Shown: piece by piece, positions 18,950 to 55,470 of the stretch
How positions within the stretch are numbered: the stretch's first letter is position 1
How the letters are laid out: every line of letters starts with the position of its first letter
Assembly: GCA_017506865.1 (NCBI GenBank)
Contig: JAFCMP010000124.1
Span: 868,001-932,000 of the forward strand
DNA from: Tribonema minus
Lineage: Eukaryota > Sar > Xanthophyceae > Tribonematales > Tribonemataceae
DNA length: 64,000 bases
Reading direction: 5' to 3'
The notes under the pieces: generated by a model
The model's input: the letters and a program-made list of their open reading frames with translations, nothing else
Told to the model about the DNA's origin: nothing
Database searches by the model: none
Translations under genes and position numbers: made by a program

Positions 18950-19032
18950 TCCAAAAAAGACCTAGGAAAATCTGCCGGAGCATTGATCAATACCTCAAAG
19001 TACTTTTGTGGTTGATACGTTTCACTCAGTAC
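18950..19032 (+). repeat. outer part of the island's left inverted repeat
   Basis: The segment with aaagacctagg, ttgatcaatacctcaaag and gtggttgatacg matches, in reverse complement, the right side at about 55,400-55,470 (aaagacctac, tttatcagtacttcagag, gttgttgcg). It was separated from the rest of the left repeat by the retrotransposon starting at 19,033. Outer limit uncertain. Confidence 0.55.
19025..19032 (+). repeat. target site duplication of the retrotransposon, left copy
   Basis: CTCAGTAC here is repeated at 26,832-26,839, exactly flanking the retrotransposon. The 3' end of the element (ACAAGTCCATAC on the minus strand) abuts it. Confidence 0.8.
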
Positions 19033-19110
19033 GTATGGACTTGTATTTATAAGGGCCCAAGGCAGGCCGGGTTGCCTATGCAATCGAAAAGCTTGCGTCA
19101 ACGCAGCAGC

Positions 19111-21755
19111 CTAGTCTGCGTTGTGCCCTAGGAGCTTGGATACCGGCGCCGCAACACAGCCCAGCATTCGCGCTCCACGTGTGTACGCCATGACTCGCTC
19201 CGCCAACTCCCGCGCCAGCGATATGCTCAGCTCAATGTGGATCTGACGCTTAGCTAACCCGGCCTTGTGTAACACATCTGCCTTCCCCCCCCCTGAGCAC
19301 AGTGCTGAGTGCATTGCCAACTCCTTCACAAAAAGGCTTGTCTGCTTGCCCAGCCGTCCGTACGACTCCTGCACGAATGGCACAAAAGCCCAAGATGACG
19401 TCAAGGTGCCGGTGTGGTGCTTGACCTTCGTGTCCTCCCCCACCCCAGCAGCGAAGCCGTCCGTGTTCGTGGCATTTGTTTTGCCTGTCAGGTACGAGCT
19501 TGCTGTGGGCGCGCGCACACTTGTGTCTAGCACTATTCCCTTGTTACGGTATGCACTGCTAAAGTGCAGACACCCTGGGTCAATTGACTGTGTCCGCCCG
19601 ATACCCCGGTACCTTGAAGACGCTAGCGTCCTCATTGCGGACAATAGAGACATGGTGCTGTCTCAAGATGCGCTGCAGGCACCGCTTTTGGGCAGTGTGT
19701 GTCGCGTTGTGCCCCCGTATGTGCTGGCTGGGGCAGCTGATCGCATGCGTGGAGGTGGGGCTCACGTCACTGCACCGCCATGGGCACACCTTGCCCTGTA
19801 TGCCCCACCCGTCTATAAAGATCGCAACCAAAATCATCGTGGCTGCTGCCATACTGGACATGGGCGCCGCGCCCGGGCGGTCATTGGCAGCGGGTGGCAC
19901 GCTCATCCACGCCATTGCCCCGGACGCACGCTGGCTGCGCAGCTGCGCCAGGACCCGCGCGCTAGCCTGTTCGCGGCGGCGGCTGGTGTCGCGCGAGTCA
20001 CCAATGAGTGCAGCCTGCGTCGGCTTGCCCACGGCACCAGCCGAGGCAGCCTCTAGGTCCTCCACCAGGCAATCCTCGTATTGACGTCGAAGAACGTTTG
20101 AAAGGCCGGCTTGTAGTCTGTGCGTGAAGTGACCGCGCCGGCGGCGGGGCACTACCTTCCTGCAGATCTCGTCAGCATAGGCCTCCCAGTCGTCGTCGTC
20201 GTCCTCCTGCCCGCCGCTGTAGCTGCTTTCTTCCACGCTAGTTTGTGTTTTAGCGGGCTTGGAAGAGGCAGCCGCGGCAGCGGCTTGAGGGCCAGGTACG
20301 GTCGCCGCCGCAGCCGCCGCCTCGGCGCCAGGCACAATGCCGTGGGTGTGTGGGGCTGGCTCAGTGGTCACCGTCTCCGTGACGGCAGTTGCGGCGTAGA
20401 TCGCTTGCACCGCAGTGGGGAGCGTCGACGCTGCGGCCGTCGTATCTGCAGCATGCTGCCCACCGTAGCAACGATGCTGGGAGCTGCTCGGCCACAGCTG
20501 TGCGTGATTTTTCGCCGCCATCAGCTGTCAGCGCTCGCGTAGAGCGTCGCACGGCCTCGATGATTGGCGGCAGTCCCTGGTCCTCGCGTATTGCGCATGA
20601 GTGCTGCGCGAACCAGGTGACTGCGCCGTGTTCGTCAGTGCCGAGCCTCAGGGCCCCTGCTGCCACAGTGGCATGAATTATTGCCGGCCGCAGTGTTGTG
20701 CATGCCTGGGCCGTGTATGCGGCTGGTGCCAGTAGCCCCAAAAGCGGCATGCCCAGACCGCCTCGTCGCTCCGGCAACCGTGACGCCCGCAGTGGCACTG
20801 CGATGTCCGTGAGTTCTGGCGGGCCCAAGCGCGGCAACACCAGCACGCTGCCACTGCTGGCTTCCTCGTTGTCACCAGCAGTGCAGGCGGCCAGCAGGTG
20901 TGACTTCATGACTGCCGCGGTAGCGCAGTCGTGCAGGTGCAGCATGCGTTCGAGCGTCCATGCACAGAACCCGTCAAACGCGTACAACCATGTCTCACTC
21001 AAAGCCGTGTCAACGACCCGAGCTAAGAAGCCCATGCGCTTCGTCAGTAACCTGCGCAGAATGAACTGTGCTGCCTGTAGGTGATGCCGCGCCATTCCAG
21101 CTAGCTGCCACGACAATCGCCATGTCCCTGCGTCAACAAGACGCTTGCTCATGGCAGCATGCACATAGGCTGGGTGCCCTACCGGTACCCCGACCGACGT
21201 AAAGCCCTGACTGGATTCTGGCATGGTGGCGTCCACAAACGGTGTGTCAAGGGCGCGCAGGCGTGCTCTGGCCGCTTCATCAAACACTGTGCCGCGCATG
21301 GCAATGGCCAGCGACTTGTCTGGTCGCACGCGTAGGCCCCCTGCCGCAAGCCGGCGGATCACCTCTGCCACCCCAGCGGCCGCTGCATCGTCGAAATAGG
21401 CAGCTTGCAGCACGTTGAGGTCATCCAGGAAAGCGCAGTGCGGGGCTGGCGGTTCCGCTGTGCTGTGGCCGTAGGCCGGCATACTGCCGGGCGTCGCATT
21501 CACTCCATCAGGGTAGAAGAGTAGGAAGGCCGCTGCCACTGCAAAGTACAGCGGCCCTAGAGGGTCCCCTTGCTGGCACCCTAGGTGGGAGCAGATAATG
21601 CGAGCTTCACCGTTCACCTCCACTCGCATCTCTGGGGCAGTGTCACCACAGTATACAGACTCAAAGTGCGGGAGCAGCTCCGGACAGAAGAGCATAAGCC
21701 CCCGCACAATGGCGGCGCGATCCACACTGTTAAATGCGTTCTCACAGTCCAGCTG
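19111..21755 (-). pseudogene. retrotransposon RT core and endonuclease, 3' part of the full-length copy
   Basis: Reads from QLDCENAFNSVDR (junction at 21,755) through the RT motifs QQGDPLGPL (about 21,555-21,580) and FLDD (about 21,419-21,430) to a stop at 20,361. A second frame opens with ATG at 20,521, overlapping by about 160 nt, and carries MAAKNHAQ, an Ala-rich acidic linker (GGQEDDDDDW) and the CPWRCSD zinc knuckle. A 1-nt insertion near 19,580 (tcaattgac against tcattgac in the other copy) truncates this frame at YRADTVN. The endonuclease region (GIVLDTSV, FVPFVQESYGRLG) continues in a third frame to 19,111. The overlap of the first two frames is shared by both copies and so predates them; the 1-nt insertion is private. 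Confidence 0.8.
21747..21755 (+). repeat. target site duplication of the nested copy, left
   Basis: GTCCAGCTG here and at 25,304-25,312 flank the nested inverted copy. The last bases (ctg) could also belong to the truncated 5' end of the insert, as microhomology. Confidence 0.8.
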
Positions 21756-24700
21756 CCCTCTCAGGCAAGCGACGGGGGGTAGGCCTGGCTGCCGCACGAC
21801 TAGAGGCGCGTGAAGCATGCGCCCCAGCAGACGAGGTCACGGCACAGGTGCTGGCAGCAAAGCACCCTGAAACTGGCGCCCGGCCCGGGGTAGTCGATAC
21901 GCCAATGGAGCAAGTGCGCGGCCTGGTACGCGACGCCCGGCGGCACTGCTTGCACGGCGCAGGGGTGGCAACGACCGCCGGGCCCGCTGGCAGCGGCAGT
22001 CCCGTCTTCGAATCGGGTCAGGCGCATGATCGCAGCGATAGGCCTGAGGATGCTGTCAGCGCAGCCGGACGGCGCCTCGAGGTGGAGGCGACAGACATAT
22101 TGTCGACCTTGTCCGCAGCAGGGGCGGGGAAGGCAGGAGGGCTGGACGGCCTACGCTATGAACACCTCTTGATGGCCGCTGGGCCTGGTGCACCAGTGAA
22201 AGCAGCCACCCGCCCCGTGGGCAGTGCCTCGCCAGGACTAGCTGGTGATTCAGAATCAGATGTGATGGAACGGCATTCGCCCATCACCTGGCCAAGGTGT
22301 TCACGACGCTGCTTGTTGAGCCCGAACTGCTGCCGGAGCAATCGCAACGGCTTCTCCGCGCCGCGGCCCTCTCAGGCATAGGACAGAAGCGGCGTCCGAT
22401 CGCCTGCTCCAGTGTCTGGCGCAGACTCCTCGGGTCCACAGCGGCACGGAGTGTCAAGGGCAACATATCGGGGCTGCTGGCCTCCATGGCGCAGTTTGGC
22501 GTAGGATACCGGTCTGGCGTCGAGCATGTGGCAGCGCGCGCGTGCGTGTGGCACGAGCTGTATGGCACCACAATCCAGCTGGACTGTGAGAACGCATTTA
22601 ACAGTCTCAGACGTGGATCGCGCCGCCATTGTGCGGGGACTTATGCTCTTCTGTCCGGAGCTGCTCCCGCACTTTGAGTCCGTATACTGTGGTGACACTG
22701 CCCCAGAGATGCGAGTGGAGGTGAACGGTGAAGCTCGCATTATCTGCTCCCACCTAGGGTGCCAGCAAGGGGACCCTCTAGGGCCGCTGTACTTTGCAGT
22801 GGCAGCGGCCTTCCTACTCTTCTACCCTGATGGAGTGAATGCGACGCCCGGCAGTATGCCGGCCTACGGCCACAGCACAGCGGAACCGCCAGCCCCGCAC
22901 TGCGCTTTCCTGGATGACCTCAACGTGCTGCAAGCTGCCTACTTCGACGATGCAGCGGCCGCTGGGGTGGCAGAGGTGATCCGTCGGCTTGCGGCAGGGG
23001 GCCTACGCGTTCGACCAGACCAGTCGCTGGCCATCGCCATGCGCGGCACAGTGTTTGATGAAGCGGCCAGAGCACGCCTGCGCGCCCTTGATATACCGTT
23101 TGTGGACGCCACCATGCCAGAATCCAGTCAGGGCTTTACGTCGGTCGGGGTACCGGTAGGGCACCCAGCCTATGTGCATGCTGCCATCAGCAAGCATCTT
23201 GTTGACGCAGGGACATGGCGATTGTCGTGGCAGCTAGCTGGAATGGCGCGGCATCACCTACAGGCAGCACAGTTCATTCTGCGCAGGTCACTGACGAAGC
23301 GCATGGGCTTCTTAGCTCGGGTCGTTGACACGGCTTTGAGTGAGACATGGCTGCACGCATTTGACGGGTTCTGTGCATGGACGCTTGAACGCATGCTGCA
23401 CCTGCACGGCTGCGCTACCGCGGCAGTCATGACGTCACACCTGCTGGCCGCCTGCATAGCTGGTGACAATGAGGTAGCCAGCAGTGGCAGCGTGCTGGTG
23501 TTGCCGCGCTTGGGCCCGCCAGAACTCACGGACATCGCAGTGCCACTGCGGGCGTCACGGTTGCCGGAGCGACGAGGCGGTCTGGGCATGCCGCTTTTGG
23601 GGCTACTGGCACCAGCCGCATACACGGCCCAGGCATGCACAACACTGCGGCCTGCAATAATTCATGCCACTGTGGCAGCAGGGGCCCTGAGGCTCGGCAC
23701 TGACGAACACGGCGCAGTCACCTGGTTCGCGCAGCACTCATGCGCAATACGCGAGGACCAGGGACTGCCGCCAATCATCGAGGCCGTGCGACGCTCTACG
23801 CGAGCGCTGACAGCTGATGGCGGCGAAAAATCACGCACAGCTGTGGCCGAGCAGCTCCCAGCATCGTTGCTACGGTGGGCAGCATGCTGCAGATACGACG
23901 GCCGCAGTGTCGACGCTCCCCACTGCGGTGCAAGCGATCTACGCCGCAACTGCCGTCACGGAGACGGGGACCACTGAGCCAGCCCCACACACCCACGGCA
24001 TTGTGCCTGGCGCCGAGGCGGCGGCTGCGGCGGCGACCGTACCTGGCCCTCAAGCCGCTGCCGCGGCTGCCTCTTCCAAGCCCGCTAAAACACAAACTAG
24101 CGCGGAAGAAAGCAGCTGCAGCGGCGGGCAGGAGGACGACGACGACGACTGGAAGGCCTATGCTGACGAGATCTGCAGGAAGGTAGTGCCCCGCCGCCGG
24201 CGCGGTCACTTCACGCACGGACTACAAGCCGGCCTTTCAAATGTTCTTCGACGTCAATACGAGGACTGCCTGGTGGAGGACCTGAAGGCTGCCTCGGCTG
24301 GTGCCGTGGGCAAGCCGACGCAGGCTACACTTATTGGTGACTCGCGTGACACCAGCCGCCGCCGCCAACAGGCTAGCGCGCGGGTCCTGGCGCAGCTGCG
24401 CAGCCAGCGTGCGTCCGGGGCAATGGCGTGGATGAGCGTGCCACCCGCTGCCAATGACCGCCCGGGTGCGGCGCCCATGTCCAGTATGGCAGCAGCCACG
24501 ATGATTTTGGTTGCGATCTTTATAGACGGGTAGGGGATACAGGGCGAGGTGTGCCCATGGCGGTGCAGTGACGTGAGCCCCACCTCCACGCATGCGATCA
24601 GCTGCCCCAGCCAGCACATACGGGGGCACAACGCGACACACACTGCCCAAAAGCGGTGCCTACAGCGCATCTTGAGACAGCACCATGTCTCTATTGTCCG

Positions 24701-25208
24701 CAATGAGGACGCTAGTGTCTTCAAGGTACCGGGGTATCGGGCGGACACAGTCATTGACCCAGGGTGTCTGCGTTTTAGCAGTGCATACCGTAACAAGGGA
24801 ATAGTGCTAGACACAAGTGTGCGCGCGCCCACAGCGAGCTCGTACCTGACAGGCAAAACAAATGCCTCGAACACGGACGGCTATGCTGCTGGGGTGGGGG
24901 AGGACGAGAAGGTCAAGCACCACACCGGCACCTTGACGTCATCTTGGGCTTTTGTGCCATTCGTGCAGGAGTCGTACGGACGGCTGGGCAAGCAGACAAG
25001 CCTTTTTGTTAAGGAGTTGGCAATGCACTCAGCACTGTGCTCAGGGGGGGGGAAGGCAGATGTGTTACGCAAGGCCGGGTTAGCTAAGCGTCAGATCCAC
25101 ATTGAGCTGAGCATATCGCTGGCGCGGGAGTTGGCGGAGCGCGTCATGGCATACACACGTGGAGCGCGAATGCTGGGCTGTGTTGCGGCGCCGGTATCCA
25201 AATCCTAG
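21756..25208 (+). pseudogene. RT/endonuclease coding remnant of the nested copy
   Basis: The reading is broken at three places by comparison with the resident copy: a 1-nt deletion near 22,271 (gaacgg against gaaccgg), a 7-nt insertion CTCAGAC at 22,606-22,612 just after ENAFNS, and TGG to TAG at 24,531-24,533 after AIFIDG. The RT core downstream of the 7-nt insertion is open to 23,977 (QQGDPLGPL and FLDD intact). The second frame (ATG 23,817) is open to the TAG. The endonuclease part (CPWRCSD to ARMLGCVAAP) is open from 24,549 to 25,208 and, unlike the resident, keeps YRADTVIDPG in frame. Confidence 0.8.
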
Positions 25209-25303
25209 GGCACAGCGCAGACTAGGCTGCTGCGTTGACGCAAGCTTTTCGATTGCATAGGCAACCCGGCCTCCCTTGGGCCTTTATGAATACAAGTCCA
25301 TAC
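21756..25303 (+). mobile_element. 5'-truncated inverted copy of the same retrotransposon, nested in it
   Basis: 3,548 bp, plus strand, starting inside the coding region (ALSGKRRGVG codons) and ending with the family 3' terminus ACAAGTCCATAC at 25,303. Flanked by the 9-bp duplication GTCCAGCTG. 5' truncation, precise 3' end and target duplication are the signature of target-primed reverse transcription. It is inserted in opposite orientation at the CAGCTGGAC site just before the ENAFNSV codons of the resident copy. Sequence is closely similar to the resident throughout, so the two are recent relatives. Confidence 0.85.
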
Positions 25304-26742
25304 GTCCAGCTGGATTGTGGTGCCATACAGCTCGTGCCACACGCGCGCGCGCGCTGCCACATGCTCGACGCCAGACCGGTATCCTACGCCAAACTGCGAC
25401 ATGGAGGCCAGCAGCCCCGATATTTTGCCCTTGACACTCCGTGCCGCTGTGGACCCGAGAAGTCTGCGCCAGACATCGGAGCAGGCGATCGGACGCCGCT
25501 GCTGTCCTATGCCTGAGAGGGCCGCGGCGCGGAGGAGCCATTGCGATTGCTCCGGCAGCAGTTCGGGCTCAACAAGCAGCGTCGTGAACACCTTGGCCAG
25601 GTGATGGGCGAATGCCGGTTCCATCACATCTGATTCTGAATCACCAGCTAGTCCTGGCGAGGCACTGCCCACGGGGCGGGTGGCTGCTTTCACTGGTGCA
25701 CCAGGCCCAGCGGCCATCAAGAGGTGTTCATAGCGTAGGCCGTCCAGCCCTCCTGCCTTCCCCGCCCCTGCTGCGGACAAGGTCGACAGTATGTCTGTCG
25801 CCTCCACCTCGAGGCGCCGTCCGGCTGCGCTGGCAGCATCCTCAGGCCTATCGCTGTGATCATGCGCCTGACCCGATTCGAACACAGGACTGCCGCTGCC
25901 AGCGGGCCCGGCGGTCGTTGCCACCCCTGCGCTGTGTAAGCAGTGCCGCCGGGCGTCGCGTACCAAGCCGCGCACTTGTTCCATGGCAAATCGACTACCC
26001 CCGGCCGGGTGCCAGTTTCAGGGTGCTTTGCTGCCAGCACCTGTGCCGTGACCTCGTCTGCTGGGGCGCATGCTTCACGCGCCTCTAGTCGTGCGGCAGC
26101 CAGGCCTACCCCCCGTCACTTGCCTGAGAGGGCAGCGCATGCTGTTTGCTGCCTGGAGTCAGCCTCCGTCCAGTCGGCATCGAAGTTCGTTTGTGCCGAC
26201 GCCGTAGCTGCGTTGTTTGGTTTGGGGGCCGGCAGCGCCGCTGCTGCTGACAGCGTCTTTCTCAGTAGCTCCGCGAAGTCGCCAGACAGCAACGCTGCCA
26301 GCCGGGCCGCAGGCGGCATACCGCTTCCCTCCGGTTGCCTACCAAAGGCCATTGCTGCTAGCAGGTGCAGCAGCCTGTAGCCGCGCTGCACTAGAGTCTG
26401 AGAAACCTGATGAGCAAACGCCCCGGCACCATGATGGAGGCGCACCCGTGCCGCCTCACGTGCACTGTCTGTGGCGTCCGCCAGTAGTCGTGTGGCGTGC
26501 TCCACTAGCCGTGCCCACTGGGTGCACTGCAGCTGAGTGCGGAAGGGGTTGGCAGTCGTGGTGAACCGCAGCAGCAGTAGATCCGCCTCATAAGTCTGGT
26601 CAAGTGCGTGGACGACCGAGGGCGTCGAGAGGTCCCAAGCCAGGGATGCTCGTGCCTGGGGCTTTGAGGGCCTGCCACTGGTGGTGGTGGTCAGGGGGGG
26701 CGGTGACGCGGCATCGTCCACGTCCATGTCCGCCCATTCCAC
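25304..26742 (-). pseudogene. N-terminal coding part of the full-length retrotransposon copy
   Basis: ATG at 26,742 (MEWADMDVDD), open for 208 codons to a TGA at 26,116; the nested copy has CGA at the same codon, so this is a private nonsense change. Further on, a 1-nt deletion near 25,990 shifts the frame. Thereafter MEQVRGLVRDARRHC through GGLDGLRYEHLL, RPIACSDVWRRLLG and GVGYRSGVEHVAARARVW to TTIQLD is open up to the insertion of the nested copy. No recognisable DNA-binding motif in the first 200 residues; the region is Ala/Thr-rich. Confidence 0.78.
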
Positions 26743-26831
26743 GGCCGTCCCGTGGGGGGGGCTGCTGTCCTGCAGCCTCAGGCTGTCAGACTGAGTGCGG
26801 CTGCCGGCGCTGCCAGGCGGTGCCGCAGCAG

Positions 26832-26839: not shown

Positions 26840-27790
26840 TGTCTTGCAGTGCCAGCGAAATGACAATGTGTCCGAACAAGCAACACAACTTCACAGCGTA
26901 GTCACAAATGCATGCAGTGACTGGCAAGGCCATCAATACAGGAAGACGATGCATCGGACAGCCAGCACTGCAGGCAGTTAAACTACCGAAACTCAGCCGT
27001 GCAAAATTCATGCCGCCACACCAGCGTCGATTTCTCGGCGCTGCTGCATCAAAGAGCAGAAAAACGAGGATCAAACGTACACCATTAAATCGAAATGCAG
27101 TGAGGCGGACCACCTGCTTCGACACAGACCCATTGCAGATGTTTAATCTTCCCTACATACAGGCCTGTTGCACACCTGCTCTGGCGCTACTTACAGCTGC
27201 CAGACAACCGGAGATTGATGAGCAAACAAAGGGAGTGACACCAAAGATGCAATAATATATGACTGCAGTTTGCCAACACGTGTACATGTACATTTATCAA
27301 TTGGCACAGTGGCTGCCAGCGGCGAAGCGTTTCAGATGCTTCCAAGCATTATGATATCCACCTGTCCCGGTCCATGCTCCACACGGACGCAATCATGCGG
27401 CCCCAGGGCCACACACAGCACAGAACCGCCTTTGTTTGCAAACCAGACTCATGCAGTGTAGTGAAGAGAGCGATGCATGCGGTAACTGTATATGTATGTT
27501 TGTACACATGGATATGTGCATGCTCCTGTTTGAGCGCTCCGTGATCAGGGGGGAAACGCGGTGCTTGGTGGTTAAGTACATAGAGTCTTCACGCCGTCAG
27601 CGCGTATAACTTGCTGCTGTGTGCTGCAGCAGTGGAGTGGCTTCGGGGTCGATGACAGTAGTGCGCTTAGCGCCTGGAGTTTTGTTGAGCGGCGCTGTAA
27701 CAAGACAGTCGCACATTGCACACACACAGATAGAGATAGCATCGGGAAAACTGACATTCAAATTCTGGGCTCGTTCTGGCGCTTATCTGG
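26840..27790 (+). repeat. left inverted repeat of the large element (main part)
   Basis: Matches the reverse complement of 54,635-55,410 along its length. Clear anchor blocks: tgcagtgccagcg (26,850), gcatgcagtgactggca (26,910), gcaggcagttaaactacc (26,970), ggcacagtggctgccag (27,300), tcccggtccatgctccaca (27,365), tatgtatgtttgtacacatg (27,491-27,510), aaacgcggtg (27,553), cagcgcgtataacttgctgc (27,598), gtggagtggcttc (27,634), cgcttagcgcctggag (27,664). The last ~45 nt (catcgggaaaac to ttctgggctcgttctg) match the reverse complement of about 47,660-47,706, because the right repeat is split by the palindromic insertion. Confidence 0.75.
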
Positions 27791-28060
27791 GCCAGGCCCC
27801 AGAATGTGCGCAGAAATCAAGACAGAATGTAAGACAATCGCAAATCTGCCGCAGTCCTGCCCTGGAGCCCAGAATGTATGAAGCAGATTGTCGCATTTTT
27901 CCTCGTTCTGCCCTGTGACGCAGAGTCAGGGCAGATAATCACATCAAAAAATCTGTGGTGGTGCGCTTCCTGGCCTGGTGCTGCCCTGCAGCCCAGAATG
28001 CTGCAGCAGAATCTTGTTTCTGCGCGGGCAGTTTCACAGGTTGAAACTTCTCTTGAAGTA
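27760..28060 (+). repeat. left subterminal cluster of ttctggg/cccagaa motifs
   Basis: Dense copies of ttctggg(c), its complement (g)cccagaa, and shorter tctgccc/gggcaga forms, in both orientations, just inside the left inverted repeat and upstream of the transposase ATG. The same motif crowds 47,375-47,706. Short repeated motifs just inside the ends are known transposase-binding sites in CACTA-type elements; that role here is inferred. Confidence 0.65.
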
Positions 28061-28091
28061 AGTACCTGCAAGTTTCTGCGCAGTGGGTGCG

Positions 28092-31000
28092 ATGCCGAAA
28101 GACATTACAAGATGCAATGGATGCCCTAGGACCTTTGATACTCCTCATGGGCTGGCCGTACATATGAAAAGTTGTGGCAAGCGCAAGCAGAAGCATGCAC
28201 ACCATGGCATTGCACACAGGAGGCTGCGTGGACCTGGACGAGGGACAAGCCCTGGCTCAGCAGCGGCTGCGGCGGCCTCGGAGACACACACGGGCAATAG
28301 CACTGAAGCAGATTCAGCAATGGACGATGACGCAGGCACTGGAGACGCTGGAGCCTTATCCTTCAGCGACAGCGACGGTGAGACACTCGCAAGAGCTGCC
28401 GAAGGGGAAAGCGACGAGCCAGCGCCGCTTCCTGCTGTGGTGGCACGCCTTCGTCGGTCTCTTGCTGCCAGAGACGCCACCAGTCCCGCTGGCGATGGTG
28501 GTTTGGAGTGGGCAGGCCCATCGCATGTCGTACATGCCGCCCAGCCTGCCGCAGCTTCAGAGGTTAATGACGACAGCATTAGTGTTGACGGCGTTGATAA
28601 TGCTGATGATGGGGACACGGATGCCGAACATGAGGAGGGTGAACACGAGGAGGGTCCTTCGGAATGCGACCAGCAGTGGAGCTGCGTGTCTTTGGCAGGC
28701 TTTTTGGCCAGTAACTCGCTTTCCGATCGCGCTGGGCAGCGGCTTCTAGACTTGCTGCTCGACCCCAAGTTCACAGTAGAGGGGTTTATGAGCACCATAG
28801 GTGCCCTCAAAGCCACTGCAGAGCTCATTGTTGGCTTGCGCGATGGCAAGGATGACTCGCCGCCGCTGTTAACCAAGCATGTGATTGACCTCAATCAGCT
28901 GGGACTGGGGGACCCCAAGTATGGCCTGCAGCAACCTGTGCATTTCTACCTGCGCGGCGTTCAGCAAGCCGTGCAGGACATACTGCAGCGTTGTTCCCTT
29001 GAAGACGGGTTCGCACCCCGCTTCGAGGAGCAGCATGACGAAGATGGCAACAGGTATTGCTCACCTCCCGCATTGTGCGACTGCAAGTGTGTGCCCATGG
29101 TTTCATCCGCTGCAGGTGCTGATGTTTTGCTGCCATACAACACGCTTTGTCTTACTGAATTCATGCACTGCTCTTCACTCACAGGCTGTACGGGGAGTCT
29201 CATACTTGTGACCAATGGCGTGCAGCTGAAGACGACCTTCGCAGTCTAGGCCGTCTTCAGGATGATGCTGTGATGGTAGCGCTCTCAGCCTACTCTGACA
29301 AAACCATGTCAAGGTCGGTGGGCAATGTGGCATACTGGCCTATGATGACTACCATCCTCAATCTGCCACGGGCAGTCCGCCACCGGCCAGAATGCAAGGC
29401 GCTGCTAGGTTACATTCCTGTTCTCAAACGGCCAGCTTTCCTCAGGAAATTGGATTCCAATGCAGGGCCTGTGAAGCAGTTCAGCCTGGGTCAAGCGCGC
29501 ATCGCCAACGCGTGCTGGGGGAAGGTGTTGACCAAGCTGGTCGAGATGGAGAGTGTTGTGCCAGACCCTGCTATCACATTCACTCTCAAGGATGGCTCAA
29601 CCATCAGCGGCGTGCCTCGTGTGATCCTATTTGTGGGCGATCACCCGGAGTCACAGATGGTGTGCGGCATGAAGGGTGCATGGAATGCTTCGCGTCCCTG
29701 TCGTATGTGCCTGGTGCCGTTTGCCCACACAGACAGGTACTATCGCAGCACGGACCAGCGCGGGGAGGGGGAGGTCTGCGAACCCAGGTTGGTAGAACGT
29801 GTGCATGCAGAGGTGAGTCTTCAAGTTAGTGACGATCTCCTTAAGCCTTGAACTGCGCTGATTTTACCACCATGTTTTATGTGCACTGCATGTGTCAAGC
29901 AGTTGCACATGGCAACGGCATCCGAGTAGTCCGCTGCCAGAAGAATTGTGCTGTGAATGCGCTGCTTTTCCTGGCATTGATTGTTCAACACATACTCAGC
30001 AGACATGACAGGCTCTCCAATTCGGATGATGGCCTTGCCACATTTGCGCACACGGTACATGCTTGCACCACTGGCAGACGCTGACACACACAAACTTGTG
30101 TACTTGTGGCAAGAACATTAGAGTTAGGGTTAGGGTTTGGGTAGCACGTGCTTGTGCTCCTCTAGCATTGCACGCATCATGTGTGCCTGCTGCCGAACTT
30201 GTTGAAGTTCACTTGCAAATGCATATGGCAGTTAGCACACAACTGTCACAGCCTCTTCTCCAGCGGTAAGATAGTATGTTTTGTATGACTCTCGGAGCGG
30301 CAGGGGCTGGGGGAGGGTTCTGCTGGTACTGCTAGTAGCGCATTGCTCAGGTCTGGTTGGGCATGGTTGTGAGTGGTCCAATGCTGGTGATGAGCTGCTG
30401 ACACTCTTGTGCGTCGGTTCCATGTTTGTGCAGGTGACGGCAGCACGACAGTTGCCTGCTACCCGTCAGGCGCAGGCGCATGTGAACGGCGGCTACCTTG
30501 GTATCATCACAGCATTCATGGTCTACGCCGGCTTTGCCACTGTCTTTGGGGTGTTCGCTGCCTCGCCGCAAGACAAGCTCCACCACTTCAAGGGCGGCCT
30601 TGCTGCGGACCTGCTGGAGTACATCATTTCCAGCTTGGAGAAGTGCCAACTACGCTGTGCTACCGCTGCAAAAGCTCTCGAGTTGTGGACTGCACGGTTG
30701 CAGGTATGATTTCCGCTTGCATTCCAGTTGGTGTACATGGAGGCAGAGCAGTCCTGTTCTACAAGTGCGCAGCTAATAGTGTGTGTTGTGATTCATGTTC
30801 AGATTTGGTAGGCACCTATCAATGATTTTGCTTTGAACATGTTGATGATTGCTTAGCGGTGTAAATTTGAAGTATGCTAGGGCATGTGACTCACCTTGCT
30901 GATCATCAACAAGCCTGTACATAAGGAGATCACCCATAGCAAGGCAGATATCAGCATTGTATGTTTGCCTATAGTGGATCATGGAGATTGCAGTACACAA

Positions 31001-34000: not shown

Positions 34001-34025
34001 CGACACCAATGCTAAGCTGTTGTAG
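28092..34025 (+). CDS. KDZ/Plavaka-like transposase, intact, six exons, 1,032 aa
   Basis: Exons: 28092-29053, 29185-29812, 30434-30703, 31927-32102, 32552-32908, 33320-34025. Their 3,099 nt form one open frame with consensus splice sites and matching phases. Residues 8-28 are a C2HC finger (C8, C11, H24, C28) of the CxxC...GLxxH...C type that opens Plavaka transposases; residues ~100-195 are acidic and low complexity. The core follows the family: SVGNVAYWP, LLGYIPVLKRP, GDHPESQ (D473), CRMCLVPF, SPQDKLHHFKGG (D577), NMCKPKHHACSHEV, FSTEHLEAGHKG (E777/E780), and a C-terminal ARAHIIEDQQF...FFVHDT block. D473, D577 and E777 or E780 are the likely catalytic acids. Exon F holds a 13-G run (33,682-33,694) that is in frame here. 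The ATG follows the subterminal motif cluster. Family membership is by remembered motif pattern; the two-D, one-E assignment is tentative. Confidence 0.78.
30115..30140. repeat. short telomere-like TTAGGG stretch in transposase intron 2
   Basis: gttagggttagggtttggg lies inside an intron. Similar short stretches occur at about 945-990, 4430-4660, 18,103, 48,873 and 53,148. Confidence 0.7.
31320..31765 (+). repeat. tandem repeat in transposase intron 3
   Basis: Five to six imperfect units of roughly 75-95 bp, each with ttgacgcatta, catcagcgtgtac, gaagtggcgccaa, catcaagttcaagcgcactg and catgagcgtgtagg. They lie inside the long intron between exons 3 and 4 of the transposase gene and do not extend its reading frame. 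Confidence 0.75.
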
Positions 34026-34504
34026 ACATAATGACAACACTTGAAGTTAGACTCTCTGAGATTGTATGACTGTCATGTGTTATGGTACCGTACTTGCACT
34101 TTGTGTTCATGTGGCTGCATTGGTACATGTCATTGGTGTTGCAGCAGTTGGTGCTGGCATGGTGTGCCTCACCTAAGCCCGCGTCAAGATTCTGGTGTTT
34201 CAACTTGAACCCCCCAAGCTGTCGTGACGAATACTCACTGATGACTGCTGGGACACTCAGCAACTGTGCATCAGACAAGTTGGTAATAAGAGAACTCTTG
34301 CTGCTTCGCTGCCTGCATGCGAAGAGCACCATGGTCTGCTGTGTGTACATTGCGCAGTCGTTGCAGCGCTGTGATGCAGTGGATCACACTGTTTGGCAAT
34401 ATCCTTACTTGTTGCAGTGCACTCATTTGAGGCGTCCCAAGCAATGTAGGAAGAACAGAGTGACGACTGATGAACGCACATGTCGTGCGGTAGAAATGTT
34501 TGTG
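34026..34504. other. non-coding segment after the transposase gene
   Basis: Contains the presumed 3' UTR of the transposase gene and no further exon that I can support. The satellite array begins at its right edge. Confidence 0.5.
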
Positions 34505-40135: not shown

Positions 40136-40646
40136 CGCACTTCAACACCTGACCTGGCTGCCACAGTTTGATTATGACTCATCGGACGCACGTGCCAGAG
40201 TGACATTCTGAATGAAGCATTGCATAGGTGTGAGTGCACTTCGTCTGATGAGGTGATCACTGTCTTTAGCCAGTATCAACCCCCACCAAGGCTGTTGTCA
40301 TGATGCATCCGCTCAATTATCCACCCACACCGTCGTCATGCAAAGCAGAATCATTGGTCACCGCTGAGAACCTTGAATTGAACAAATACCAACGACGGGT
40401 ACATGCGCACACAAGGGCGGGGTGCTAGCAGGCATGAGCCCTGAGCGCGACAACATCACAGCTGCAGAGCATCTGCGCAATATACAAGCCTAAGCAGCAT
40501 GATGGTGATGGACTGCCATGCGCATTCAAGGCCGTGTAGAGGTGATGCCATGGGACATATTCAACAATAGAAGCACCATCACGGTGCGACAAGGCAGCAA
40601 CATTCACCAAGCAATGATGCATGCTACGGTGAACACCATACTATTA
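40136..40646. other. non-coding segment between satellite and minus-strand gene
   Basis: No exon supported; it should contain the 3' UTR of the minus-strand gene ending at 40,647. Confidence 0.45.
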
Positions 40647-42201: not shown

Positions 42202-42319
42202 GCTACCACTGAGCGGTCAGACCGTCTACATGCGCCGGCTGTCAAGGTAAGTTCAACTTTTGACAAGTTCAACTGATAGTTGCAGTTAGCCCACACAAAG
42301 GACAGATAATCTCCTCACC
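42202..42319. promoter_or_regulatory. shared intergenic region of the divergent gene pair
   Basis: Only 118 nt separate the two start codons (42,201 minus and 42,320 plus), so a compact bidirectional promoter is likely. It contains caaggtaagttcaacttttgacaagttcaac with an internal repeat, but no recognised core element. Confidence 0.5.
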
Positions 42320-45300
42320 ATGGCAAACGACGCTTCCGCACCAAGTGCCTCGACTCGCAACAAAAGCCGCGCTAGGGAACCAGCTCCTACAATGTCGGAG
42401 CTGTCTGTTGCGCCAGTTGCCAAGAAATCCAGGACAGGTGAGGCCAACCGCCATTTTCAAAAGCGTTGGTGCTCTGATTGCCACAGACACAAGCCACCTG
42501 CCCCCCACAACGTCCTTATCAACTAAAACTTTGTTATTCGTCCCATCACTGCTGTTCACTCGTGCAGATTCTGGGCAGGGCAAGCAGCGTGCGGCACCAG
42601 CTGCTGCCGGTAAGCATTGATATTTGACAATGCTTGTAGCTTGGTGTTCGCTGTCCAATAACGAATCGAATTCAAATACAATCATACAAGACGGCTTTGG
42701 TGTGAGAAGCGAGCTGCACAATCTCTTCTGCGATGTCTGCTGGACGGTAGAGCTGGCAAACGCGCAACCGCCGCGTTTGATGCCCTGATTTTTCAAAGCA
42801 AGGGCTTGGCTCTTATTGTAAACTTCGCGCAGCAGATGATGCTTTACACGTCCATTTATTTTATGCTTTTGGGGGGGCAACATCCCTGTAAAGCATACTT
42901 AGCGCACAGCACCAATGCTTGGCCGCGCTGCCACGAGCGTCAAGCTGCTGATGATTCGAAATTTCATCTACCAGCAAGCACATGAACTGTGCTACTGCCA
43001 GTTAGTGTATATTATAATCCAGTACAAGCCCCCTTGGGTGCTGTACAGCCTCACGATTGAAGCCAGCACCAAACGAATAGCAAACATTGCCGCCGAGCAC
43101 TGCACCGGCTCGCTTGCCAACAAAGATACTGTAGGAATGGCCTGGCGTGTGTGCCCAGCGTTCCATAGCCGAGAACAACCACAAAGTGTAGCACATTGAG
43201 TGGTTCTGCACATAATGAATAAAAGCAGAATGTTTACTTGGTACTCACACGTTGCCCCTGCGTGCTCGTGCTCCACCATATATGCCCTGCAGATCACGAG
43301 CCTCAGGATGTCAGCGCTCGCCGTGCCTCGGCGCTGTTGGCTGATGATGATGGCTTGATTGGTCAAGTGATGGGCACTGGCGCTGAGACGCCAGCGGCCT
43401 CTGCATCGCAGACGCCAGCGTCTGAGGCAATGGAGACGGCCCCACCTCAGAGCGATGCAGTGACCAGCACCACGTTGGTAGCGGCCGTCAGCACCGCTCT
43501 GCAAGCACTGCGCGCTGACCTCTGCGCTGCTGGCACGGAGGGCGCACGCGCAGCTATCACCGATTCTGAACTTGAACCTCTGGCGCCAGTAGTGTCTGTG
43601 GTGCTGAGTCTGGCAACACTGATCGTGGAGCAATTTGCGAGGCAGCAGGCCCAGTGTGAGGACCTGCGCACGCAGGTGGCTGGCATGCAGGCGGCGCTGG
43701 AAGAGGTTCAGGCCAAACTGGCAGGTAAGCTGCGGCTGCTAGATGTGTGGTTCATTATTTGACACTCTGAGCGCCACTGGATAATTGGAATCAATTGCCA
43801 CATTGTTGCAGTACCATCTTCATGATCACCATGGCCTAGCACTGATGTTCTGCTTGTACTGCCAAGCACTAGTGATTACTTGGTGATAGACTGTCTGCAT
43901 CGCAGCTGCGCTTTACCCTTGATTGAGGACCTGAACATATGACGCTTTGAGATTCATGTGCGTTGCTACATTGAATCACTAAATTATAGATGAAGAACAT
44001 AGATGAAGAACTCTCTCTTGATGCTGGTGTACGCACCACGGTGACGTGACTGCTGTCTTGCTGCTGCCACACCATTGACGCGCCTGAGTGCAGGTCTTGC
44101 CATTAAACCTCTTGCCAGTGGACGTGCTAAGGTCAACGCGAAGGCTGCTAGTGCCGTGCAGGAGTTGCACCCGCTTGCCAACCTGCTGAGCGCTAGCAAG
44201 TGCGAGCTTACTGACTGGTAAGCATTAGTGCAGGCGGGCTTCTTGTTGTGACTCTGTGTCGTACCAGTGAAGCTTTGCTGCAAACTCCGTTCATCATGTC
44301 CTGAGGCTCGTTTAGCACGAACGTACACCAGTGCTCAGGCTAGCTGTGAAGGTGATTATTTACATTCAGCATTGCCATACGTTGGCATGCGACGTTGGCA
44401 TGCGCTGGAGATGCCCATATGTTGCACTTGTACAATACATATGCTCGACTGCTCTGTGCTCACATCACATCGGCTGCGGCATTCATTGATGTGTGCAGGT
44501 TCATATTCGGATCACCCACCGTACTCGGCGTTTCGGGGCCGGACGACATGGCAACGGCCTTCATCAAGTGGCTGCATGGACCTGTTGCTGAGTACCTCGT
44601 CAAGAACTCGGAGGCGAAAACTTTGTTGGGCATGGTCTGTGGGGGCAAGACCGGAGGCGCTCTGCCGGAGGGTGTTTCCAAACTCAAGCACGTGACTTTG
44701 GCAGTGCTCAGCCAGGAGTGCTCACGGGCTGCACCAGGCAACAAATCTAGCATTGGGTGAGTTCTGCACTTATGCTCTCATCTTCATGACTTCGCTCACT
44801 CACCTGATTGGACTTGGAGGGCAATTTTAGCAACGGACAGTCCTACTTTCATCGATGCGCAGCGCAATCGCACTGGCTCTGCGACCTGGCTTGCTGACTT
44901 CCAATCCTTTCAAGCACCTGGTCCAGTGCAAATGTAGTTTTTAGTACATTTGGACTTTTGGACTGCCAAGCATCAAGTATCATCTGTTCGCTCAGGCTGG
45001 TGTAGAACCTGCATGTTTCAACTACCTCAACCAGATTGCTACGCAGCTACAGTAGCATGCTGGGCGCACTACTGCAAAATTGCAATGTAGTGAGACTCAA
45101 CCTGAGGGTGTTATATTCTCTCTATGACACTGTCCAAACCCGAACTGCCAGTGCGACGCGGAGCATCTCACAGCACCTGCCCAAACTTCAACTGTGACCC
45201 TCGAGTGTAGGTTACATCCTCAGTGTATCCAAACTTTAGAGTATCATCCGATGAGTCACACAAGATGCTCATGCTGTGCTACCACTGAATGCACATACCC

Positions 45301-46978
45301 CACACTGCTTTTCTCTGGTTGAGCATCCTGCAGGGCACGCATTATCAGCCGTTATCAATCCCTAGCCAATGATGCACGCAAAGTGGTGGGCTACTTGCGC
45401 GAGGGCACCGAGAGGAGCAGCGCCGATGTGAAGAAACTGCGGGAGCTTTTCTTTGCTGAGGCACTGGCCATTGGAGGCGCACTTGACGCTTGCGAAGGCA
45501 AGTCACAGTACTCACACCATGGCAGTCACAAATCTCAATCTACGCCATGGCACCAGCTCATTACGCAACTCATGCTTTGGCGCGAGTAGCCAGTTCAGTG
45601 TGCTACAGTGCTTATGCCCTTTACATTTGTGCAGATGCCCTTTACATTTGTCGCATGGCATTGTGGCAATCTTGCAGACTTTTGTTTCAGCTTCAACTTC
45701 AAGTGATAGTACAGTGCAAATTATCACTTGTTCCGTGGTCGCGATACATGACCAACACGAGCACAAAAGAAACGGCAGAGGGGTGCAGCAACTTCTGGCG
45801 CTTGAAAATTGCGTTCATTGCCCGAGACTGTCACATGGCCACCGTTTGTTTCCATGAGATTTGAGCTCAGCTTTGTTCGCGTGTGATACATGTGTGCAGC
45901 GTCTGCAAAGTGAATCACCACCTTGTGTTGTTACCTTCTCAGTCCCATGATAGCTACTCTTTCACTGTCAACTCGCAGACCCGAGCTGCCTGTGGGTGAA
46001 GAGAGGCACATCTGCCACTTACACGCCTCCCATCAGCATCAAGAAGGAGGGTGCAGTCAAGAAAGAGGATGCAGGGGACAGTGCGGGTGACACAGGCCTG
46101 GCGGTGCCTCTAACCAGCATTGAGGCGCGACTGGCCTTAGCTTCAGCTTTCTTTCGCCAGAAGCTGGAGGAGGCCAGTGCTTTTGCGGCAGCAATCTCCA
46201 CGGCCATGCCATATACGCTGGAGATGCCCACTCTCACTGGGGAGCTGGAGCGCTTGTCCAGCGCGCACATCGCCGATCATGGCGCACCCCGTTCCAGGCG
46301 ACAGAAGGAGCTCGGCGAGCTAATCATGCGGCTCACGTTGCCGGAGAAATCCAAGGCGAAGCAGTCGGCTGCACCGCATACCCAGGCATTGGTGTTCCTT
46401 GCCTGGCACATGGTGAGTGGAATTGAAATTGCCAGACTAGTCGTAGATTCGCAGAGGCTGTTTCTGTGCATCCATGGCAAATGGCAGCAACAAGGCAGCT
46501 CCAGGCATACTCACTGAGCCCTGGTATGTTGTCATGTCAATTCTAGTATTTGCCACTCTCATCATCATATGCAAGCCTGCAAGTAATGGTAGCAGCTTTC
46601 AAAGCTAGCCAACACTGTATCCCAGTTGGCGATTGACATTCACACTGCACTGGTGGATCGCTTCAGTATTTTGTCAAGGTTGCATCAGTAGATATGTAGA
46701 GCCCTCACATTCAATTCAGTTAAGATGGCATGGTGCAATGGCAGCTGCTGTGGCTCAATTGCTGCACAATGTTTCTTGCGCTGGCGCAGACACTGCAGGG
46801 GCATTCAGCGATTGAGCGAGTGGGACTGCCGCCGCATGTCAAGCTTGTCGCCAATCTCATCAGAGCGACAGCTGCCAAAGAGTCCGCCCCACGCATGCCC
46901 AAGGTGCTTGATGTTCTCATCGAGTCAGAGCCAGAGGAGGACAAGGAATCCGATGCTGACTGCGAGGATGGCGAGTAA
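42320..46978 (+). CDS. unknown eight-exon protein, 586 aa, in the large element
   Basis: Exons: 42320-42437, 42568-42609, 43293-43724, 44094-44217, 44499-44756, 45334-45497, 45979-46412, 46790-46978; 1,761 nt in one frame, TAA at 46,976. Exon 6 ends at a GC donor (45,498), the only choice that restores phase for exon 7. The start is basic (ASTRNKSRAREPAPT). Exon 3 ends in a probable coiled coil (VEQFARQQAQCEDLRTQVAG, LEEVQAKLAG). Exon 7 has two SUMO-type sites in tandem (ISIKKEGAVKKEDAG), and the C-terminus is strongly acidic (ESEPEEDKESDADCEDGE). The layout suggests a nuclear, DNA- or chromatin-associated protein, but I recognise no domain. An intact frame over eight exons argues for recent function. 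Its location inside the inverted repeats makes it a candidate accessory gene of the element. Confidence 0.68.
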
Positions 46979-47374
46979 GAACATGCTGAACCAGGGGGGG
47001 GGGGGGCGGGGGCTACCATGCTGGCTACTTCTCATGGCGTTTCTGCAGTTGGTGCATGAAAGGTGATTGTGGTTGCACAATGCTCAGTGGTCAGCCATAG
47101 TGGCACTGCTGCAGCAAGGCATGTGGTCGTGGGAGAGATGGCCTGTTGGTGATGCAACTTGGTATGTAGCTGCGTGCAAGCTGCAATACAGCACTCTGGG
47201 CAGTCTATAGACAACAAGGGCTCAATGTACACAGTCAATATTATCATACCACTCTATCATGATGCATACACCTTTGCATGCACTTGTTTGGTGACTTGAC
47301 GTCAGGCTGCTGATACTGTGTGCTTCATCCAATCGCATGCATTGCAACAGCAGCACGTTGTAGTCAAGGCAGAA
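46979..47374. other. non-coding segment with poly-G run
   Basis: 3' flank of the eight-exon gene. A 13-nt poly-G run lies at 46,994-47,006. No exon supported. Confidence 0.5.
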
Positions 47375-47706
47375 TGAGTTTTCTGGCATTATTCTGGGCA
47401 TTATTCTAGGGCCACCTCTGGGCAGAAAACAAAGTCTGCCCCCTTGTTCTGGGCAGGTCCAGACCAGAAAACACCCCAGAATCGATGCAGAACGGGCATT
47501 CTGCGCTCGTGGCGTGGGCAGAGCGCAAGGCAGAAGTGGCCCAGAATGGCGTCCAGAGTTGTCCCAGCATGAAATTCTGGCCAGAACGCCCACTCTGCCC
47601 AAATCCCGCGGTCTCGGAAAGTTTTTGAGCAGATCCGTCCCAGAATTACCCCCCTGCAGAATTTGGGCAGAACGAAGCCCAGAACGACATGTCGATTTTC
47701 CCGATG
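47375..47706 (-). repeat. right subterminal motif cluster and inner end of the right inverted repeat
   Basis: Dense ttctggg/cccagaa and gggcaga/tctgccc motifs in both orientations, as at 27,760-28,060. The terminal part (gacatgtcgattttcccgatg, read in reverse) aligns with the left side catcgggaaaactgacat. Its continuation into the right inverted repeat resumes at 54,635, beyond the palindromic insertion. Confidence 0.65.
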
Positions 47707-47714
47707 AGGGAGTA

Positions 47715-53500: not shown

Positions 53501-54654
53501 TTTGAACTTGAAAATCATCACAATGCACACTCAGTGATGGGGTGCATGAGGGTCACAAGCAGATTGCAAGACTCTTGCTGTAAACCTCCTGCACTGGTTG
53601 CCAATCAGTGGCCACGGGGGCACTGGCAGCGCACCGGCTACTGCAAGCGTTGCTCTGCTGATTGTATGTTTGCGATTGACACATGTAAGCAGCTGAACCA
53701 GCTCTTTCTCCGCTGCATGCTGCTGCTGTTCTTGGCGTACTTGCAGTGCCAGTGCGCTGTGAGCTTGTCCCGCACTTCAGCGCGGACCTATGCGCGCGCC
53801 TGTTTCCTGCCAGTGGCGAGCCACTGATGCCACTGCCAACCGATCTATACATGTTCTACACCGCATATCTGTTGTATCACGGCTACGGCACCTACGAGCG
53901 CTTCATGCTCCTGAACGGCGAGTCAGAGTGCCTGGTCAGCTTGCCGCAGGTGCTGACGGCACCTCTACTGGCGATCGTGCGGGAGCTGCGTCGCCGAGAT
54001 CAGAAAGGTGAGACAAACACTGGGTATGTATGTATGCATGCAAATGCTTCTTCGACGGCCATGTCAGAAACGCAATGAGCTTGAGGCCTTTCACTGCTTT
54101 TTACTGGTATGACGACTGCATTAAAATTGCGCTACGACTCGGCTACTGCAAACCATATGCCTAATCTTGTTCTTGCTCTCATGTTTTTTCGACGGTGAGT
54201 ATAGGTCTTCTGTACGTATGGTTTCTGTACCCACAAGACTTTGCCAACCCTGAATATTCATGAGATGCACATCCTGATGTGTGTCAAAATGCGCACTTGA
54301 CATGGTCAGTTGAGAGCTATGTACAGCATCATTGACATGCTGCAATGACTCCCCATGCTTGAGGCGCACTACAGCCCGTGAGCTCCAGAACCCGACAGCC
54401 TGCTCGCTCATTTGTGCTACTGTCCAAGCAGCTCGCTCTCGAGCTGTTAACTTCTTGACTTGTCGCAACCCTGCAATCTCGGCGATCTCACGACTGCGTC
54501 AACTTGAACTTGAAGTCAAGCCAGGGAATATTTTCTGGGTATGTAGCCATGGCCTCCACCTCGGCAAGCAGCGGTGACACCAACTACGCGTTCTCTCCTC
54601 TTACAGACAAGACACTGCTCCTCACCTACTCCCTACCTCTCTCTGTGCGTGTGT
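50587..54654 (+). CDS. right-arm palindrome gene, unknown family, partial exon model
   Basis: First exon 50587-50845 (MSSVGEPVPQLPAHLLRELA, RRWCRHLQNDVERAVSRLV, YQRRRELDQNMQLLLVL), phase 1, then gtgag. Distal exon 53747-54007 (CELVPHFSADLCARLFPASG, PLPTDLYMFYTAYLLYHGYG, ECLVSLPQVLTAPLLAIVRE), ending at gtgag in phase 1. A final exon 54607-54654 (DKTLLLTYSLPLSVRV, TGA) would run past the palindrome end into the inverted repeat. Internal exons between 50.9 and 53.7 kb were not resolved, and an hAT element lies in that interval. The first exon is helix-rich and charged. I recognise no domain. It is the better preserved of the two arm copies. Confidence 0.5.
52073..52969. mobile_element. hAT-type DNA transposon, 897 bp, non-autonomous
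   Basis: Terminal inverted repeats CAGGGTTGGCA (52,073) and TGCCAACCCTG (ending 52,969) are flanked by a perfect 8-bp duplication GATGCACT (52,065-52,072 and 52,970-52,977). Subterminal regions are rich in cctaattaggg units in both orientations. TIR start, duplication length and subterminal repeats are those of the hAT superfamily. It is absent at the matching position of the left palindrome arm (about 49,040). Confidence 0.92.
52369..52719 (-). pseudogene. truncated hAT transposase N-terminus with BED-like finger
   Basis: 116 codons from ATG 52,719: acidic start (MADDEADGDDVEVV), then LWQLFRDGG and FCLAHDRAG, then a SMAAHLKSCVHL end. The W..F, C..H/C and HL..C spacing resembles a BED zinc finger, the usual N-terminal DNA-binding domain of hAT transposases. 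The catalytic and dimerisation domains are missing, so the element would depend on a full-length relative. Confidence 0.6.
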
Positions 54655-55470
54655 GATGTGCGATTGTCTTGTCACAGCGCCGCTCAACGGGCCTCCAGGC
54701 GCTAAGCGCACTACCATCAGCGACCCTGAAGCCACTCCACTGTTGCAGCACACAGCAGCAAGTTATACGCGCTGACAGCTCGAAGACTCCACTTTCACGA
54801 CCAATCACCGCGTTTTTCCTCAGCGCTTGAGCAATTAGATGTGTCAGCATATCCCTCGGAACAGGAGCATGTACATACATGCCCATGTGTACAAACATAC
54901 ATACACAGGCATGCTTCGATGTCAATGCAACACAGCATGAGTATGGTCTGCACGTGAAGGCACTTCTGTAGTGTGACTCGTGGCATGTGGAGCTTGGACC
55001 GGGACGGGCGAAAATGCTTGGCAGCTGCTGCAGCTGTGCGCCCAGGTGGTCAATGCAATGCATTTCGTACAGGTCGATGCATTTCGTACAGGTCGAAATG
55101 CGTTGCATTGACCACCTGGGCGCACACAGCGCTTCGTTACTGGCAGCCACACTGTGCCAAATGTACACTGTGCCAAATTTGCGCTCGTATGGCGGTATGT
55201 AGCTACATATATGTGATGCTAGCACATTGGTATGATCACGTTGCATGGCTGGACTTTGGTAGTTTGATTGCCTGCAAGTGTGTCTAGATCAAATTAGCGG
55301 CCTTCCTCAATTTCCCTGCCAGTGACTGCATGCGTTACTGATCACATCTGATAGTTGTGTTGCATGTTCGGGCACAGTGGTCGCTGGCACTGCAAAATGG
55401 TACAACGCAACAACCTCTGAAGTACTGATAAACCTTTGGGAAAAATTGCTGAAGTAGGTCTTTGAAAGTT
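54635..55470 (-). repeat. right inverted repeat of the large element (main part)
   Basis: Reverse complement of the left repeat (26,840-27,740 and 18,950-19,032). Anchor blocks: cagcgccgctcaac and ctccaggcgctaagcgcac (54,675-54,712), agcaagttatacgcgctg (54,758-54,775), caccgcgttt (54,806), catgtgtacaaacatacata (54,884), tgtggagcttggaccggga (54,986-55,004), ggcagccacactgtgcc (55,141), gcatggctggactttggtag (55,243), ccagtgactgcatgc (55,319), cgctggcactgca (55,382). It contains a hairpin insertion at 55,034-55,128 that the left side lacks. At about 55,391-55,411 it shows the uninterrupted version of the retrotransposon insertion site. Confidence 0.75.
55034..55128. repeat. hairpin with internal 19-bp direct repeat in the right inverted repeat
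   Basis: Arms of about 33 nt (gtgcgcccaggtggtcaatg... and its complement ...cattgaccacctgggcgcac) differ at one or two positions. Between and overlapping them, atgcatttcgtacaggtcg occurs twice head to tail (55,058-55,076 and 55,077-55,095). The left repeat lacks this block. Confidence 0.8.

Follow-up and report, generated by a model that had tools for sequence, protein, structure and literature searches.

Where does the mobile unit begin and end in a 64-kb stretch of the Tribonema minus genome in which inverted repeats enclose a transposase gene, a satellite array and two further multi-exon genes? The stretch, called the window here, comprises positions 868,001–932,000 of contig JAFCMP010000124.1 (C124:868001-932000; NCBI GenBank assembly GCA_017506865.1), and coordinates without a contig name refer to its 64,000 nucleotides. 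A sequence-only reading, made by a model without database searches, had proposed a giant composite transposon at 18950–55470 bounded by inverted repeats of about 1 kb, and had suggested looking in the genome for other copies with the same end points and for an empty site. A giant transposon bearing genes and a satellite does exist here and encodes a Plavaka transposase, but its borders are 27740–47706 and not 18950–55470. With a probability of about 0.93, a DNA transposon of the Plavaka lineage (EnSpm/CACTA clade), 20 kb long, autonomous in appearance and mobile until recently, occupies this interval, having been inserted in an older inverted duplication (Table 1).

The borders were obtained from other copies of the element, using searches that covered the 554 contigs of the 158-Mb assembly and in which only the best candidates were scored. 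A left-end query (26836–28080) matched nine places; its part at 27740–28080 was found on contigs C13 and C233 (100%), C423 (79%) and C110 (77%), and in all four the first matched base was window position 27740 exactly. A right-end query (46960–47800) gave ten places, including the window's own. Six of the nine others (C13, C367, C177, C423, C81 and C224) terminated at 47706–47709, matches on C212 and C110 ended earlier, and the last was the opposite arm of the palindrome described below. Copies thus start at 27740 and stop at 47706–47709, which delimits the mobile unit as 27740–47706.

The outer repeats belong to another structure. Inverted homology is real between about 18.9–27.7 kb and 54.6–55.5 kb, reaching ~71% in two segments (26836–27004 versus 55403–55241, and 27321–27739 versus 55042–54633), with a weaker extension beyond an insertion in the left arm. 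The arms were aligned with two intervals omitted, each comprising an insertion plus a single copy of its duplication: 19033–26839 for a retroelement and 27740–47708 for the transposon. They then matched in four successive blocks, 18999–50415 versus 55426–50586, centred at ~50.5 kb and 65–72% alike by block, with one block crossing the transposon site (27321–47974 versus 55042–54382). Because the arms are continuous to ~50.5 kb, the outer repeats and the interval at 47.7–54.6 kb form one palindrome, which we take to be host sequence that was duplicated in inverted orientation at an earlier time. It was broken by the transposon and the retroelement, and the ~1-kb repeats are its shoulders, not the ends of an element. 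A separate foldback insertion at 47.7–54.6 kb was considered and dropped, as the arms run through it. Of the later insertions that were said to split each repeat, the left one (19033–26831) is genuine, but the supposed right one is the inner part of the palindrome.

A single 36-kb composite element bounded by the ~1-kb repeats at 18.95 and 55.47 kb would account for true inverted homology that encloses the transposase and the other genes, yet copies elsewhere stop at 27740 and 47706, and the arms continue inward to ~50.5 kb once the transposon is omitted. Nor was any other copy with the outer ends found in the genome. The outer arm (26836–27739) matched only itself, the opposite arm (two places) and 92- and 128-bp fragments on C529 and C539, and the inner half (47709–50500) matched ten places, namely itself (one), the opposite arm (six) and three fragments of 108–150 bp. 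We rejected the composite element, to which we assign a negligible chance, on the lack of a second copy of the outer ends and on the course of the arms. The sequence-only reading had itself named the absence of other copies with shared end points as grounds for refutation, and on this test the copies favour the inner unit, 27740–47706, over the outer structure.

The transposon carries imperfect terminal inverted repeats of 18 bp (CATCGGGAAAA…TTTTCCCGATG; 16 of 18 positions paired), so that its ends read CATCGGG..CCCGATG. The empty site that had been proposed as a check was found for this inner element in the opposite palindrome arm, which, read in reverse, runs ...GAGAGGTAGGGAGTAGG... continuously without the element, where the occupied arm reads ...GAGATAG(element)AGGGAGTAGG.... 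The arm comparison removed the element and one of the two duplicated bases, leaving one surplus G visible, and comparison of the empty with the occupied arm therefore indicates that AG was duplicated at the window site. Identical dinucleotides flank three of the four copies that have both ends on one contig (AG in the window, CT on C423 and TG on C224). AC flanks the left end on C233 and the right end on C367 and C177. The latter two have flanks identical to each other and are probably two haplotypes of one insertion; together with the C233 left end, they may represent a single further insertion split by assembly.

Relatives of the element range from near-identical to distant. An 18.7-kb copy at C13:787388-806081 has the same order of transposase, satellite, accessory gene 2 (−) and accessory gene 3 (+). 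With the satellite set aside, the 14,427 bases aligned between this copy and the window show 8 mismatches and one 1-base gap, and what remains of the difference in length falls within the satellite part; across the 1,930 codons of the three genes, 5 changes are non-synonymous and none is synonymous. The copies at C233:1-16229, C367 and C177 are likewise near-identical to the window, and a diverged 16.6-kb copy at C423:254278-270909 retains the ends and the gene order. At C224:1032360-1034616, a 2,257-bp copy with both ends and no protein match to the three genes is a small non-autonomous derivative, having 863 bp in common with C81 at the right end (87%). C110 has the left end and C212 the near-terminal right part of the element, and the two contigs have a 3-kb stretch in common (72%). 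These stretches (C110:152998-159257 and C212:521094-525946) represent a further related family; among the three proteins of the window, only the final exon of gene 3 has a match there, a weak one on C110 (40% over 55 amino acids, E 3e-4).

Near-identity of the copies and the empty site are the only observations that bear on autonomous cut-and-paste transposition, and from these sequences the 20-kb element has seemingly been active recently. Segmental duplication, instead of transposition, could also produce near-identical copies and would fit both the C13 copy, which lacks a target duplication, and the common flank of C367 and C177. However, homology among the window, C13, C233 and C423 ends at the terminal repeats, beyond which their flanks are unlike, and 2-bp duplications at three loci together with the empty site point the same way; we consider segmental duplication very unlikely.

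The assignment to Plavaka comes from the transposase. Exons were joined manually at GT-AG borders (one GC-AG), guided by open frames and by conservation with C423, and the spliced protein matches the Plavaka domain PF18759 (E 1.3e-20, 74.3 bits; cut-off 26.3), as does the frame with exon 2 (E 2.1e-16, 60.5 bits). An N-terminal C2H2 finger is weak and below the Pfam cut-off. A Plavaka profile search of the genome gave five matches, four of them in the window's family; the fifth (C212:351966-352499, 44.9 bits) lies outside it. Pfam includes a KDZ model, and no KDZ family was among the Pfam matches at E≤1 of the 1,032-amino-acid transposase. The sequence-only description of a complete KDZ/Plavaka-like transposase therefore holds for completeness and for Plavaka, but not for KDZ. 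According to the available parts of a recent classification, Plavaka has been moved from KDZ to the EnSpm/CACTA-Mirage-Chapaev-Transib (CMCT) clade (Kojima 2025, PMC12730594), where it shows C(2)C and H(3-4)H motifs between the second D and the last E. In the window's transposase, CRMC stands after GDHPESQM, and no alignment placed the histidines or the last E. KDZ membership was rejected on the missing Pfam match and on the 2-bp target duplication, against 8 bp in Zisupton, a KDZ family (PMC12730594). Filing under PlavakaB, described with 2–3-bp duplications and CATCA..TGATG ends (Kojima 2025, PMC12730594), was rejected on the termini CATCG..CGATG: because the fifth terminal base is G, we file the element as Plavaka.

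Several observations weigh against an autonomous, recently mobile transposon. The C13 copy has unlike flanks (TC left, AG right) and no target duplication; the copies on C233, C367 and C177 are incomplete because they run off contig ends; and the terminal bases of the C224 copy have diverged. On C233, an additional base near 29414 and a stop within the final exon disrupt the transposase. In addition, the exon borders of all three genes are predicted from sequence, and the last E of the transposase's catalytic aspartate–aspartate–glutamate (DDE) triad could not be placed.

Table 1 Features of the Plavaka transposon and of its surroundings (window coordinates).
Feature	Position	Strand	Basis or remark
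Plavaka transposon, 19,967 bp	27740..47706	+	Borders from other genome copies; empty site in opposite arm
Left terminal inverted repeat, CATCGGGAAAACTGACAT	27740..27757	+	16/18 match the right one
Right terminal inverted repeat, ATGTCGATTTTCCCGATG	47689..47706	-	
Target duplication AG, left copy	27738..27739	.	Comparison with opposite arm
Target duplication AG, right copy	47707..47708	.	Comparison with opposite arm
Left subterminal CAGAA/TTCTG (CCCAGAA) cluster	27740..28139	.	11 in 400 bp
Right subterminal CAGAA/TTCTG cluster	47307..47706	.	17 in 400 bp
Transposase gene, 6 exons, 1,032 amino acids	28092..34025	+	Open frames, C423 conservation, Pfam
Transposase exons	28092-29053, 29185-29812, 30434-30703, 31927-32102, 32552-32908, 33320-34025	+	
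Satellite array, 179-bp monomer / 358-bp higher unit	35623..40121	+	~4.5 kb
Further monomer-like blocks	34609-34796 and 35091-35463		
Accessory gene 2, two exons (42201-41820, 41386-40647), 373 amino acids	40647..42201	-	No known family
Accessory gene 3, at least 6 exons, at least 533 amino acids	43292..46978	+	One GC-AG intron; start codon not fixed
Accessory gene 3 exons	43292-43724, 44094-44217, 44499-44756, 45334-45497, 45979-46412, 46790-46978	+	
Older palindrome, ~8.6 kb without two insertions, centre near 50.5 kb	18999..55426	.	Target of transposon
Retroelement insertion in left arm of palindrome	19033..26831	.	8-bp duplication

As the sequence-only reading had held, two intact multi-exon genes lie inside the element; both are open and contain introns. 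Neither resembles a known family: Pfam searches gave nothing significant (weak matches only, E 0.039 and above), no element protein had a TET/JBP Pfam match at E≤1, and against solved structures the best match of gene 2 had E 0.11 and gene 3 had none at E≤1. Structure prediction for gene 2 exon 2 from its single sequence reached a mean predicted local distance difference test score of 35.6 and was not used further. Searches of viral contigs, each made with a single sequence that detects close relatives only, gave no pattern match for transposase exon 2 and no relative of gene 2 exon 2, for which one pattern stretch was unconfirmed.

Comparison with C423 allowed the selection on all three genes to be estimated. 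Ratios of non-synonymous to synonymous substitution rates (Ka/Ks; 95% ranges from 300 bootstrap resamplings) were 0.24 for the transposase (0.20–0.29; 1,016 codons), 0.51 for gene 2 (0.38–0.71; 343 codons) and 0.41 for gene 3 (0.32–0.52; 505 codons), and no stop codons occurred in the aligned exon parts of C423. By this measure, all three are under purifying selection. One exon of gene 2 had eight matches on six contigs and one exon of gene 3 had five matches on five contigs, in element copies only, so that both genes are element-owned and have no host paralogue by this search with one exon each. Capture of host genes as cargo would suit their many introns and the lack of any known transposon domain, and the donor gene may have been fast-evolving or lost. 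Against capture stand the restriction of the searched exons to element copies, purifying selection on both genes across a Ks of about 0.4–0.5, and a sequence weakly related to the final exon of gene 3 that lies in the C110 stretch, part of a different family in which the left end is the same. On balance, we judge captured cargo to be unlikely, and treat genes 2 and 3 as transposon genes.

Subterminal motifs offer a possible role for these genes. The matching motif clusters that had been noticed are present, but they sit just inside the true ends at 27740 and 47706. Counts of CAGAA/TTCTG in the end 400 bp (Table 1) compare with an interior mean of 0.66 per 400-bp bin (maximum 3; 47 bins), and C423 has 11 and 15 in its end 400 bp versus an interior mean of 1.00 (39 bins). 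CCCAGAA is the commonest 7-mer of the 360-bp ends, with 22 occurrences in the ends and 3 inside (window and C423 pooled). Across the four ends of the window and C423, 23 of 50 gaps between neighbouring motifs were 11 or 12 bp, whereas random motif placement yielded 3.18 such gaps on average and no more than 11 in any of 5,000 trials; these counts are not independent, because window and C423 are homologous and the spacing class was picked after the positions had been seen. Spacing by about one helical turn suggests a protein that would bind on one face of the DNA.

In the mechanism that we propose, the element jumped into the older inverted duplication. Its transposase would recognize the 18-bp terminal repeats and the helically spaced CCCAGAA motifs, excise the element and insert it at a site with a 2-bp stagger, a DDE cut-and-paste reaction being expected from the Plavaka family. 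The subterminal motifs would be bound by the transposase, by one accessory protein or by both; in En/Spm, TnpA binds subterminal motifs. Genes 2 and 3 may assist or regulate transposition, and the satellite would be a passive passenger. We tentatively raise the possibility, which we hold to be somewhat doubtful, that the two accessory genes of this giant-Plavaka lineage encode novel transposition proteins rather than cargo and that one or both of these proteins read the motifs phased at 11–12 bp, as an independent counterpart of TnpA/TnpD of En/Spm.

The satellite array reported inside the element was borne out. A search with the satellite unit yielded 76 matches distributed over six contigs, and the element is present on five of these. 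The satellite is not quite confined to the element, because C510 holds a separate array (C510:331717-334000; 75–83% alike) outside any recognizable element copy. The 5 kb before this array (L053) had no match to the element, and the 5 kb after it (L052) had two short non-coding element matches (179 and 181 bp) and one of 29 bp, one of the short matches being a dispersed repeat of window 35464–35614. Neither flank contained a terminal motif or a protein match to the three genes. A short repeat adjoining the satellite (35508–35627) also occurs outside the transposon at 13677–13806 (85% alike), with a 99% copy at C224 1034895–1035059 and an 80% copy in L052.

The retroelement in the left palindrome arm lies between the two copies of an 8-bp duplication (CTCAGTAC, at 19025 and 26832) and has a reverse-transcriptase match below the Pfam cut-off (E 3.4e-6). 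It is high-copy: a query with about its first kilobase gave 1,370 candidates, of which the best 40 include the window's own, the others being 96–98% alike. Its internal order is unusual, A-B-A'-B', in which A (19031–21755) and B (21752–22584) are followed by inverted A and inverted B (97% alike). At the palindrome centre, divergent open frames at 50151–50531 (−) and 50536–50853 (+) encode alike proteins with no Pfam family over the cut-off; the layout resembles a head-to-head duplication of one gene. Other repeats in the window include a 92-bp imperfect palindrome with a 19-bp tandem unit in the right arm (55035–55126; 83%), a diverged tandem repeat with an offset of ~80 bp in the third transposase intron (31335–31763), and a dispersed repeat of ~90 bp on both strands and in both flanks of the locus (9008–9096, 14770–14863, 58685–58785 and 63125–63219; 80–89% alike).

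How this transposon relates to known systems was assessed from the available parts of the cited papers. Fungal PlavakaB elements are alike in their Plavaka domain, CATC..GATG termini and 2-bp target duplication, and some of them carry an additional gene (TET/JBP; PMC12730594), much as the window's element carries extra genes. Unlike PlavakaB, however, the window's element has CATCG..CGATG ends, no TET/JBP Pfam match at E≤1 and a photosynthetic host, and it spans ~20 kb with a satellite and two genes of no known family. That the host is a photosynthetic eukaryote is evident from 92 genome matches to the chlorophyll a/b-binding family. In Amoebidium, giant Plavaka-associated repeats reach 50 kb (Sci Adv 2024, PMC11244446); like our element, these are very large, bear genes and are linked to a Plavaka transposase, whereas the element described here has defined termini, three intron-containing genes and a satellite. 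The red alga Chondrus crispus has EnSpm/CACTA families of 16–20 kb with 4–5 open reading frames (cited in PMC6431247), similar in size, extra reading frames and transposase clade; they are named EnSpm and not Plavaka, and the comparison is by description only.

For the satellite, a close parallel is Jozin, a 16.5-kb CACTA-like element of Chenopodium quinoa in which a 171-bp satellite takes up 5.55 kb (PMC8978399). That satellite was called a capture, and a related one is unconnected with elements in C. sosnowskyi (PMC8978399). Both cases place a satellite of similar monomer size inside an element of the CACTA clade, and here too an array (on C510) lies outside the element. By description, the Jozin array is near the 3′ end, whereas ours lies between the transposase and the accessory genes. 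Among green algae, EnSpm-Plavaka elements of Auxenochlorella have been called potentially active (PMC12633428), and the available portion of a comparative Chlamydomonas paper names Zisupton and Kyakuja, not Plavaka (PMC8226300). Our literature search for Plavaka together with a satellite found nothing.

The locus provides a clean case, outside the fungi, of a very large Plavaka element that is present in several copies and has apparently moved recently; its ends are known exactly, an empty site occurs naturally, a diverged sister allows selection tests, and a small non-autonomous derivative exists. With it, two questions become directly testable: whether giant CACTA-clade elements use their extra genes for transposition, and in what way DNA transposons carry satellite arrays along. 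The claim that such an element is not a described class goes too far, as giant Plavaka repeats, 16–20-kb EnSpm elements and satellite-bearing CACTA elements are already in print, as far as the available parts of those papers show. Since the parts are in print elsewhere and their combination was not found, the element is, as far as our searches reach, a new variant and not a new class, distinguished by uniting a Plavaka transposase with a satellite and two conserved orphan genes.

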